DNA of 64,000 nucleotides from Bacteroidales bacterium (GTDB taxonomy: Bacteria > Bacteroidota > Bacteroidia > Bacteroidales > UBA932): NCBI GenBank assembly GCA_017561885.1, contig JAFZBF010000020.1, forward strand, positions 1 to 64,000, read 5' to 3'. Within the stretch, counting starts at the first letter, position 1. Each line of letters starts with the position of its first letter. This document shows, piece after piece, positions 23,448 through 32,706 of this stretch. The position numbers were made by a program, and so were the translations under genes. The notes below the pieces were generated by a model. The model searched no databases. It was not told where the DNA came from and saw only the letters and a program-made list of their open reading frames with translations.

Positions 23448-23528
23448 GCCCTGAACTTATCTCCCGTCCGCCAGCAGGAGATTATTAAGGTCTCCTGCTG
23501 ACGTCCGAGGATAAGATCTGCTTGGGGC
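23448..23528. other. Long imperfect hairpin, possible structured RNA
   Basis: Nested complementarity: GCCC (23448-23451) with GGGC (23525-23528), CTTATC (23456-23461) with GATAAG (23510-23515), and a perfect nine-base stem CAGCAGGAG (23472-23480) / CTCCTGCTG (23492-23500). Both arms of the internal loop carry CGTCCG. The rod with an internal bulge recalls 6S-type RNAs, but I cannot match it to a known family. It may also act as a terminator or processing site for the GH78 operon. Between 23529 and 23658 there is further partial pairing (AACCT/AGGTT, CCCC/GGGG), but no gene. Confidence 0.35.
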
Positions 23529-23658
23529 GTAACCTGTGCGTGTTTTATAAAAGGTTGATTCCTAGACGCTAGAGCAAAGTACTTACCCCATTTTGAAGGG
23601 GAAGGCTATTGCGTTTTCTGCGATGTATCAGATGTTTACAAATCACGGCTGCGGCATC

Positions 23659-23841
23659 GAAAAGAAGGCCTGAGCGGGGGCTGGCCGTGTGTTACTGGGA
23701 CGCTGTCCCAAACCCTGCCGCTCAAGCCTGCTATCAGCACCTGCCACCCCACACGGCTTTCGCTAGCGCCTGCAGGCGCCTTATATGGGAGGGATTGGAG
23801 TGAGCGGCAGCTCACGGAACCCCCCGAAGGCTTTGCTTTCC
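23659..23841. repeat. Compound palindromic element, copy B
   Basis: Related to the element at 31735-31893. Three helices are visible: GCCGTGTG (23684-23691) with CACACGGC (23750-23757); hairpin TGGGAC-GCT-GTCCCA (23696-23710); hairpin GCGCC-TGCA-GGCGC (23666-offset 23766-23779). Between the helices, CTGCCGCT and AGCCTGCTAT are shared with copy A. The outer ends show weaker, interrupted complementarity (GCCT and G-run against C-run and AGGC). No coding capacity is credible. Confidence 0.65.
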
Positions 23842-23846
23842 GTGCA

Positions 23847-24060
23847 GCAGCAGTTTCCATGAGCCCGTCCGTCCCGCGAAAGGTCGGTTTGCCGGGATAC
23901 GAGGCAGTTTTCTGTCCGTCTGTCCCGCGAAAGGTCGGTTTGCCGGGATACGAGGCAGTTTTCCGTCCGTCTGTCCCGCGAAAGGTCGGTTTGCCGGGAT
24001 ACGATGCAGTTTTCCGTCCGTCTGTCCCGGGAAAAGGCTGTTTGCGGGGATGGAGCGGAG
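23847..24060. repeat. Tandem array of 51-base hairpin units
   Basis: Three nearly identical 51-base units start at 23871, 23922 and 23973, a diverged fourth starts at 24024, and a partial one precedes the first. Each unit contains TCCCG ... AAA ... TTT ... CGGGA, an interrupted palindrome, then ACGAGGCAGTTTTC and a CCGTCCGTCT linker. Because 51 is a multiple of three, both strands show open 17-residue peptide repeats; this is a by-product, not evidence for a gene. From 24061 to the stop codon at 24096 nothing else is seen. Confidence 0.85.
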
Positions 24061-30138: not shown

Positions 30139-31734
30139 ATGAAGTCAGCCAGGTTTAGGATATGGATTCTGATCCTTCTTTTTACGCTGCTGGCGTCAGT
30201 ACCCTTCCTTGTACCACACTCGGCAATTGTGGGTATATTTGCATTCGTGCCGTTGTTCGCACTTGCCGACCTTCTGGAAGAGAACGGGATCAGACACCAG
30301 AACTGGCTGACTTTCATTCCTTTCCTGCTATTCAACATTGCCACTACCTTCTGGATATGGTGGGTGTCTCCGGCCGGAGCGGTGACAGCCATCGTGCTGA
30401 ACGCCTTGCAGATGTTCTTCATCTTCTGGATGTTCCGCAAGTTCAGGAAACGCTTCTCCGGAGCTCTGCCGTACATCTTCTTTATCGCCGCCTGGATAGC
30501 GTGGGAGAGGGTATACCAGAACGTTGAGATATCCTGGCCGTGGCTGATTCTCGGCGAGTCGTTCGCCACCAGCCCTCACGTGGTTCAGTGGTATGAGTAC
30601 ACCGGCTTCCTTGGAGGCTCGCTGTGGATACTGCTGACAAGCACAGTGATGTATCATATTCTCCGCGGTGCGTTCAAGAATGTATACACCATCAGGGTCC
30701 ATGCGGCTCTGGCTTTCTTCGCAGCGGCGCTGCTTATCGCTCCCCCCGTGGTGTCGGCAGTCATCTACGACAATACGGAGGAACGGGGCGATGCTGTCGA
30801 AGTGGTTGCAATACAGCCAAACATCGACGCCTATTACGAGAAGCACGGCGGCCTTGACCAGAATATCCAGGACAGCATCATGGTGGCGCTTGCAGAGCCT
30901 CTGATGAGCGACAGCACCCGCTATGTCATAACTCCGGAGACGTTCACATACGACTTCGACCTCGACCATCCGGAAGCCAACGTGACCTACCGGCACGTCC
31001 TTCAGTTCCTGCGCCGTCATCCGAACGCTGATTTCCTGCTCGGCTCCATCACGTATCGCATTTTCCGCACGAAGGATCAGGCAGGACCTGCGGCAAGGCC
31101 TGTGGCAAATATGTGGTACAACGGCTACAATACGGCGATGATGATGGACACAACCGGCATAATGAACCTCTATCACAAGAGCAAGCTGGTGCCCGGCACT
31201 GAAATCATCCCTTACCAGCAGTACATTCCTTTCCTGGGGAAGATAATGTCAGCATTCGGCGGAGCTGCAGGCAGCTACGCACGGCAGAAAGAGCTGTCGA
31301 TACTGCACGGGCGCGACGGCCTGGGAGTGGGAGCGATGATCTGCTACGAATCTGTCTATGGCGACTACTACCGGCAGAACGCGAAGCTGGGGGCAGGCTT
31401 CGTGGCAGTCATTACCAACGACGGATGGTGGGGCGACACTCCAGGCTACAAGCAGCATTTCAGATATGCCCAGCTGAGGGCCATCGAGACTCGCAGGGAT
31501 GTGGTGCACGTGGCCAATACCGGCATCACCGGCTTCATCGACCAGAGGGGAGATGTGGTGCAGCGCACCGGCTGGTGGGAGCCTGTAGCCATCAAGGGCG
31601 ACGTCCACATCAATGACGCATTGACGTTCTACGTGGTCAACGGCGACATAATCGGACGCATCTGCTGCTTCCTCTTCCTGCTGCTGCTCGCAGCGTGGAT
31701 CGTCAGACTAATTGTGACTCGCAAGCATAATTAG
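30139..31734 (+). CDS. lnt: Apolipoprotein N-acyltransferase
   Basis: A 531-residue inner-membrane enzyme that adds the third acyl chain to lipoprotein N-termini. Six or so hydrophobic helices cover residues 1-215. The periplasmic nitrilase domain has the full triad context: Glu in ITPETFTYDF, Lys in YHKSKLVPGTEIIPY and Cys in GAMICYESVYGDY, plus ITNDGWWGDT. A last helix closes the protein. It is co-directional with and ten bases from a lipoprotein GH43 gene, a chance or useful linkage. The compound palindromic element begins at the base after its stop codon. Confidence 0.95.
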   Translation: MKSARFRIWILILLFTLLASVPFLVPHSAIVGIFAFVPLFALADLLEENGIRHQNWLTFIPFLLFNIATTFWIWWVSPAGAVTAIVLNALQMFFIFWMFRKFRKRFSGALPYIFFIAAWIAWERVYQNVEISWPWLILGESFATSPHVVQWYEYTGFLGGSLWILLTSTVMYHILRGAFKNVYTIRVHAALAFFAAALLIAPPVVSAVIYDNTEERGDAVEVVAIQPNIDAYYEKHGGLDQNIQDSIMVALAEPLMSDSTRYVITPETFTYDFDLDHPEANVTYRHVLQFLRRHPNADFLLGSITYRIFRTKDQAGPAARPVANMWYNGYNTAMMMDTTGIMNLYHKSKLVPGTEIIPYQQYIPFLGKIMSAFGGAAGSYARQKELSILHGRDGLGVGAMICYESVYGDYYRQNAKLGAGFVAVITNDGWWGDTPGYKQHFRYAQLRAIETRRDVVHVANTGITGFIDQRGDVVQRTGWWEPVAIKGDVHINDALTFYVVNGDIIGRICCFLFLLLLAAWIVRLIVTRKHN

Positions 31735-31893
31735 CACTTTCTGAATTTGTGATTGAGGATCCTGACCCTGAGTTGCTGGGCTCTGCCCAGACCTGCCGCT
31801 TCAGCCTGCTATTGCACATGCTCGTCCTCACGGCTTACGCTATCGCCTGCAGGCGATTAGTAGCGTCGGTCCGAAATGCAAATTCAGAAAGTG
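31735..31893. repeat. Compound palindromic element with perfect 15-base ends, copy A
   Basis: Terminal inverted repeats CACTTTCTGAATTTG (31735-31749) and CAAATTCAGAAAGTG (31879-31893) are exactly complementary. Inside are a seven-base helix with one mismatch (CCCTGAG 31766-31772 / CTCACGG 31827-31833), hairpin CTGGGC-TCT-GCCCAG (31776-31790) and hairpin ATCGCC-TGCA-GGCGAT (31842-31857). Copy B at 23.7 kb shares the loops but differs in helix bases. No target-site duplication is evident. Confidence 0.8.
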
Positions 31894-31899
31894 GTATGG

Positions 31900-32706
31900 C
31901 TATATAGAAAGATACTTCTCAGCGTATCGCTGGCCGAGGAGCATCTGGCCTTCGCGGCTGAAATGCAGGCTGTCCGCATTGCCGGGGCAGCCCTCAGCAC
32001 TGACCCATGCACTGTTCGGAATATGCTCTTCGATAGTCCTGATCATCGGATTGAACAGCCTTGAGCCGGAGAAGCAATAGGGAATCTCGCCTGCAATGAA
32101 CGGCACTTCATCTCCAACGCCGAGGTCCTTGCGAAGATCAGCCACGAAACCCTCCAGCCTGTCCATATAGTTGTTCACCAGCCCGGGCCCCGAGTCGCTG
32201 CATCCCTGATGCCAGATGATAGCCTTCAGCCGGCCGTGTTCCATTGCAATCTTGGTGCGTCTTACAGCCTCGTCGTAGAAAGAAGGCATAGGCTGTCCGT
32301 CGAGTTCCGGGTCGTCAGTGCCGCGCAGGCTGAAAGTGCCTGTCGGCGCGCCTTTGAGCCACTCGTTGAGAGCAGATCCGCCGCGGGCGTTCACAACCAT
32401 CAGCATATCGTTCTTGGAAGTCCCAGCTATCGTGCGGGCGAAATTGTATGCAGGATTGATCTTCTGCATGCCCACTCTCTTGCGGATGGTGGAATAGAGG
32501 TTGAGAGGAGCCCTGGCCGGAACTATCTCGTCATTGCCGTCGAGGATGAATGCATGAGGGATGACGGTGGTGTCTTCCGGCAGCATGTCGCCGCGGCCTG
32601 CCATATTAGACTGGCCTATGAACAGATAGACGTCATATTTCGGTTCTTTGCCGCAGGATGCCAGCACGAGCACTGCAGCAAGTATCAGGAATAATTTTCT
32701 TGACAT
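31900..32706 (-). CDS. SGNH-type carbohydrate esterase lipoprotein (SASA/CE6-like)
   Basis: A 268-residue protein with lipobox LASC. The catalytic blocks of the sialate-O-acetylesterase/CE6-like SGNH family are present: FIGQSNMAGRG with the nucleophile Ser, NARGGSALNEW, IIWHQGCSDSG and the C-terminal DSLHFSREGQ with the Asp-x-x-His dyad. Such enzymes remove acetyl groups from xylan or sialic acids. ATG at 32706 gives the lipoprotein leader and lies one base after the tonB stop codon; the longer frame to 32901 would overlap tonB. Confidence 0.87.
   Translation of the reverse strand: MSRKLFLILAAVLVLASCGKEPKYDVYLFIGQSNMAGRGDMLPEDTTVIPHAFILDGNDEIVPARAPLNLYSTIRKRVGMQKINPAYNFARTIAGTSKNDMLMVVNARGGSALNEWLKGAPTGTFSLRGTDDPELDGQPMPSFYDEAVRRTKIAMEHGRLKAIIWHQGCSDSGPGLVNNYMDRLEGFVADLRKDLGVGDEVPFIAGEIPYCFSGSRLFNPMIRTIEEHIPNSAWVSAEGCPGNADSLHFSREGQMLLGQRYAEKYLSI

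Follow-up and report, generated by a model that had tools for sequence, protein, structure and literature searches.

Two nested palindromes between convergent genes

Within the window (the whole 64,000-nucleotide stretch of DNA that we analyzed), one copy of the element, copy A, fills the intergenic gap between lnt, which is on the forward strand and ends at 31734, and the gene for a SASA-family esterase, which is on the reverse strand and ends at 31900. Another pair of convergent genes flanks copy B (Table 1). An earlier reading of the letters alone (the sequence-only reading) had reported perfect 15-base terminal inverted repeats at copy A, and these are present; they can also be scored as 18-nt arms at 94%. 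The arms of copy B are imperfect (23647–23670 and 23827–23848) and distinct from the 15-nt arms of A, and copy B has near-copies in its own genome at C41 and C18.

What A and B have in common is a core of about 97 nt, with three short helices (H1, H2, and H3) and conserved linking strands. H1 and H3 had already been described, with different bases in the two copies. Both helices are real, and the conservation of the strands between helices is borne out as well. The proposed third helix (CCCTGAG/CTCACGG in A and GCCGTGTG/CACACGGC in B) did not survive: over 101 copies, its strands are paired at 29.3%, versus 27.9% expected when strands are matched across different copies, and this position pairs to any extent only in B, in L002 (a near-copy of B), and in A. 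The 3' strand that was assigned to this helix is actually part of H2 (AGCC/GGCT), which shows double changes at all four of its pairs.

Table 1. Coordinates of copies A and B and of their parts in the window.
Feature	Position	Strand	Sequence or context
Copy A, entire nested palindrome	31735..31893	.	Gap between lnt (+) and the SASA-family esterase gene (-), which converge
Copy A outer arm 5'	31735..31749	+	CACTTTCTGAATTTG, sequence specific to the locus
Copy A outer arm 3'	31879..31893	-	Exact reverse complement of the 5' arm
Copy A core	31768..31864	+	Match to model R1, 88.3 bits
Copy A H1	31776..31790	+	CTGGGC-TCT-GCCCAG
Copy A H2 5' strand	31803..31806	+	AGCC
Copy A H2 3' strand	31832..31835	+	GGCT; takes the place of the earlier third helix
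Copy A H3	31842..31857	+	ATCGCC-TGCA-GGCGAT
Copy B composite	23647..23848	.	Between convergent TfoX_N (+) and AmiA-like amidase (-) genes
Copy B core	23687..23787	+	99.4 bits
Copy B H1	23696..23710	+	TGGGAC-GCT-GTCCCA
Copy B H2 5' strand	23725..23728	+	AGCC
Copy B H2 3' strand	23755..23758	+	GGCT
Copy B H3	23766..23779	+	GCGCC-TGCA-GGCGC

Other repeats accompany copy B. It is followed (23865–24051) by direct repeats with a period of 51 nt, each of them quasi-palindromic (TGTCCCGCGAAAGG...TTTGCCGGGATA), and similar repeats come after the C18 and C41 copies. Upstream of copy B (23453–23518) is a separate 66-nt palindrome (GAACTTATCTCCC...GGATAAGATC), which is also found upstream of both near-copies, at varying distance.

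A family of copies in gut Bacteroidales

Used as a BLAST-type query, copy A matches three further places in its own genome and has matches in 18 of the 26 genomes of the genus; most matches are confined to positions 44–124 of A, that is, to the core. With a covariance model built from 27 copies (alignment A1, which was made without regard to structure), there are five copies in the same genome and 0–29 per genome across the genus, with copies in 23 of 26 genomes; all of these genomes are drafts, mostly metagenome-assembled, and the copy numbers depend on the assembly. In g16, a sister genus in the same family, genomes with matches have 2–20 copies each. The rest of the family gave a few weak matches, and an order-wide sample gave one weak match beyond the family. 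Model R1 (27 copies) has 113 matches in 98 loci, corresponding to 111 distinct copies (alignment A2). The sequence-only reading had staked its case on more copies in this genome and its relatives, with differences that preserve pairing, and the covariance model finds them. At one locus (L128 1515–1839, G006:C85), 3.5 copies of the core lie head-to-tail with a period of 93, and these are 99% identical.

Matches from a pattern scan of named genomes were to uncultured Bacteroidales or Bacteroidia MAGs, many of which bear the label rumen, reticulum, or omasum, with goat, sheep, or water buffalo as the animal; one MAG was labelled red deer, and we take a single match in Rhizobium to be due to chance. 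The hosts of the family are uncultured gut, mostly rumen, Bacteroidales. The family is new, and the open-access literature that we searched contains no description of it.

The stems pair as DNA more than as RNA

Across 113 copies (111 distinct) and 16 pairs, 98.4% of the 1728 pair cells are standard, and 15 of the 16 pairs show double changes. The covariation score is 0.290, as compared to 0.080 in shuffles, and none of 500 shuffles scored as high. Alignment A2 was fitted to the model, but the structure-blind A1 agrees with it: it is 98.8% paired, seven pairs have double changes, and G·T is absent from its pair types. Given the 113 matches, the standard pairing, and the covariation, the resemblance of A and B exceeds chance.

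Wobble pairs are nearly missing from the stems. Only 5 of the 1728 cells (0.3%) are G·T and 12 (0.7%) are A·C. In the same genomes, G·U accounts for 52 of 693 cells (7.5%) in the SRP RNA and for 8.0% in tRNAs (n = 59; ARAGORN may not admit A·C, which makes the zero A·C in tRNAs uninformative). If the stems functioned as RNA from the plus strand, then G·T should be well above A·C, and if as RNA from the minus strand, the reverse; neither reaches RNA-like levels. The near absence of wobble on either strand implies either that both strands are constrained, as in DNA, or that the arms were copied from each other. It is more likely that pairing is maintained at the level of DNA rather than RNA. The orientation of the TGNN loop and the single-stranded linkers are also strongly conserved across the two genera. 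When the bare core is folded in silico as DNA, it does only moderately better than shuffled sequences (z between about -0.3 and -1.2 for A and B, and between -2.6 and -2.9 for L126), which counts against the folded-DNA reading.

The sequence-only reading had held that paired changes are what a selected structure looks like. This is unsafe for DNA palindromes, as template switching during replication can alter both arms at once and so yield compensatory changes without selection on an RNA (PMC8794818). In this alternative, our copies would be neutral palindromes, kept by intrastrand fold-back that copies one arm from the other and spread by rare duplication; no dedicated enzyme or function would be needed. 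Template switching predicts double changes that are Watson-Crick only, adjacent pairs that change jointly, and arms of arbitrary sequence (PMC8794818), and it accounts for the near-perfect 37-nt arms of L148, which are too long for an ordinary terminator. It is the main rival, and is strongest for the pairing and the variable arms, but it is a mutational process and not an element. By itself, it leaves unexplained the dispersal to dozens of unlinked sites, the conserved linkers and TGNN orientation in two genera, and the clean insertion into a hairpin loop that is described below. Overall, we consider it unlikely to be the whole account.

Dispersed sites, some of them empty

The copies sit between genes, in both orientations, and most flank pairs are not homologous between genomes (few loci are orthologous). 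Orientation relative to the flanking genes is mixed. Contexts were called with a simple ORF rule, which placed spurious or extended ORFs over 41 of the copies; among the 59 cleanly called contexts, 24 are convergent, and the comparison sample of 10 other gaps is too small to test for an excess. At L085, L007, and L021, copies directly adjoin the SRP RNA gene and tRNA genes.

The element is polymorphic at orthologous sites. At locus A, we joined the lnt and SASA genes as a query, which gave one continuous match in each of four genomes. In three of them (G017, G012, and G016) the two genes nearly abut and the element is absent, and in the fourth (G011) there is a terminator-like hairpin and no element. 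In two other genomes (G005 and G009), the place is taken by a coreless 116-bp palindrome whose arms are as in A; the core is present in G000 alone. Similarly, the region of copy B in G009 lacks copy B, and in g16, three loci (L136, L150, and L148) have orthologs without the element. The species compared mostly have 75–87% identity in these genes, and at this distance an insertion in one is not always distinguishable from a deletion in the other. No target-site duplication was seen at locus A, and no recent insertion was found between near-identical strains. L020 and L033 are the same locus in G006 and G025, with the element flipped relative to its flanks.

These sites bear on two further alternatives. 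The copies could be expanded bidirectional transcription terminators that are retained for termination between convergent genes, which is where both A and B lie and where G011 has, in the orthologous place, a hairpin like an intrinsic terminator. However, no terminator with a T tract was detected at A, more than half of the called contexts are not convergent, and termination does not require conserved internal linkers, which makes this explanation quite improbable. The other alternative is a structured RNA, either a small RNA or a 3'-UTR element, that is selected for its RNA fold. Copy A does fold significantly (z of -4.3), the covariation is strong, and the 24 convergent contexts also speak for it. 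But the region of copy A has no promoter or terminator pattern, and Rfam has no match in the window at the gathering score; with a permissive limit (E up to 1), it also has none for the core in the eight copy-bearing loci searched. With G·U nearly missing, both orientations in use, mostly non-orthologous sites, and presence/absence polymorphism, we judge a structured RNA to be very improbable. Among the three roles that had been proposed from sequence, the small RNA and the 3'-end structure therefore fit poorly, and the non-autonomous mobile element recognized as folded DNA fits best.

Nesting, and a hairpin inserted in a hairpin loop

The core of A is nested within arms whose sequence is particular to the locus, and nesting of this kind recurs in the family: in 25 of 106 copies, the flanking inverted repeats exceed 99% of controls with mismatched flanks. 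For example, L161 and L150, from one genome, have a common inner unit (CTGAAAAG...CTTTTCAG) inside outer arms (CACTACCC and ACGATGTCC) that are unlike each other and are each self-complementary. The same is true of L009 and L010, from two genomes. Arms are shared by the members of small subfamilies and are locus-specific beyond them. In the surroundings of cores (within 100 bp), there is an enrichment of about 26-fold for a second module, one with GGGCCCCTCCC.

The clearest single event is at a locus of the L136 type. In G896, the gene ends in a terminator-like hairpin (GATGCCCGGTCGAGCCGGGCATG), and in G901, this same hairpin has 24 extra bases in its loop (CCCCCGGTCGTAGCCGAGGGTGGC) that themselves form a hairpin. 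This is one case, and the module is not the core.

No mobilizing gene found beside the core

Y1_Tnp proteins, mostly open frames of about 250–400 amino acids, are found in 21 of the 26 genomes of the genus, and there is a weak correlation with the number of cores (rho = 0.46, p = 0.018). The copies could be canonical REPs or REPINs that are mobilized by RAYT (Y1) transposases. REPINs and BIMEs, which are REP doublets mobilized by RAYTs, are short, non-autonomous, intergenic, and multicopy, show compensatory changes, and are believed to move in the form of folded single strands of DNA (PMC3116915, PMC8266576). The core family is likewise a short palindrome in many intergenic copies, although at 0–29 per genome it has fewer than typical REPs. 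A REPIN is two inverted REPs, while the core is a single asymmetric unit of three hairpins with conserved linkers, for which a head-to-tail array exists and inverted pairs are sporadic. Furthermore, GT pairing is "often observed" in GTAG REPs (PMC3733652), whereas our stems have almost no G·T. Reading the alignment by eye, on both strands, we saw neither GTAG nor CGTC at the foot of H1 or H3. No core lies within 1.5 kb of the RAYT loci examined, many of which have palindromes of their own that are unlike the core, and Y1_Tnp is not detectable in G010 (15 copies) or G019 (6 copies). The locus-specific outer arms are another difference. We consider a canonical REP or REPIN to be improbable; because it fails on the foot and on adjacency to RAYT, the core is better described as a small intergenic mobile palindrome that is not a REP.

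Two candidates for the mobilizer were set aside. A RAYT was rejected as the evident mobilizer, since no core adjoins any RAYT gene that was examined, and the intervals between inverted pairs of cores (L122, L123, and L125) contain ordinary genes only, with no transposase and no autonomous element. One RAYT-type gene in the genome of copies A and B (L040, G000:C20) is flanked on one side by a pair of REP-like palindromes (GTACAAGGTC...GACCTTGTAC), and these are unrelated to the core.

MITEs of the ERIC or NEMIS type are small, non-coding, and intergenic and have terminal inverted repeats. The core family is alike in all of these respects and differs in that its arms vary between loci; no target-site duplication was seen at locus A, and no parent transposon among the loci examined. 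Another parallel is with the repetitive or double hairpin elements of fungal and sponge mitochondria, which are potentially mobile, dispersed, patchy, and clustered, and whose mobilizer is not known (PMC2800124). The core family is also dispersed, patchy, clustered, and potentially mobile. Those elements are organellar, however, and consist of one or two hairpins, in place of a conserved core of three.

Mobile palindromes that may move as folded DNA

We give a probability of roughly 0.6 to the reading that A and B are lineage-specific intergenic DNA palindromes, with a three-hairpin core of about 97 nt, which disperse within genomes and build up by nesting. The element is probably a REPIN- or MITE-like non-autonomous palindromic repeat that nests into hairpin loops and is processed as single-stranded DNA in a folded state. 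Small palindromic modules, the core among them, would sit at the apices of larger hairpins, and some of these hairpins are like ordinary transcription terminators. The form that is copied or recognized might be single-stranded DNA that has folded, as could happen on the lagging-strand template, and hairpin loops may be the preferred sites of placement or retention. A nuclease, from the host or from a parasite, could act in trans, and an enzyme of the HUH/Y1 type is our best guess. The two processes may also act jointly, with mobility dispersing the copies and template switching keeping the arms perfect.

More tentatively, and with doubts outweighing confidence, we suggest that mobile palindromes insert into loops as folded single-stranded DNA by means of an enzyme other than a neighboring RAYT. 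Terminators would in this way expand into Russian-doll palindromes, with only Watson-Crick covariation in each stem. If so, such palindromes would systematically give rise to false calls of structured RNA. Strong covariation, of the kind on which such calls are based, occurs here in a repeat that is very probably mobile DNA. Comparing G·T to A·C mismatches in the stems offers a simple test to discriminate between the two. Confirmation of loop nesting would explain how complex intergenic palindromes grow and would open a way to study how single-strand DNA transposition works in Bacteroidales of the gut that are uncultured.

Relatives of the H1 hairpin in other families

No occurrence of an exact 20-mer comprising the H1 hairpin and the AAACCCC linker was found in 395 sampled genomes of the phylum; it does occur in Bacteroidales of other families (L248–L271), in 5 of the 295 genomes sampled from the order, with 18 copies in G433. 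In these five genomes, it precedes different downstream modules. The relative in G380 (L251, L262, and L264) appears as a MITE-like unit of about 300 bp with inverted repeats of about 16 bp at its ends (TTAACGTGAGTTCGA); these arms occur three times, all at its own copies, and neither a parent transposon nor a transposase copy was seen. In L248–L271, the loop of the next stem is CTTGAT, which is complementary to a downstream ATCAAG (CTTGAC and GTCAAG in G285), and a pseudoknot is possible.
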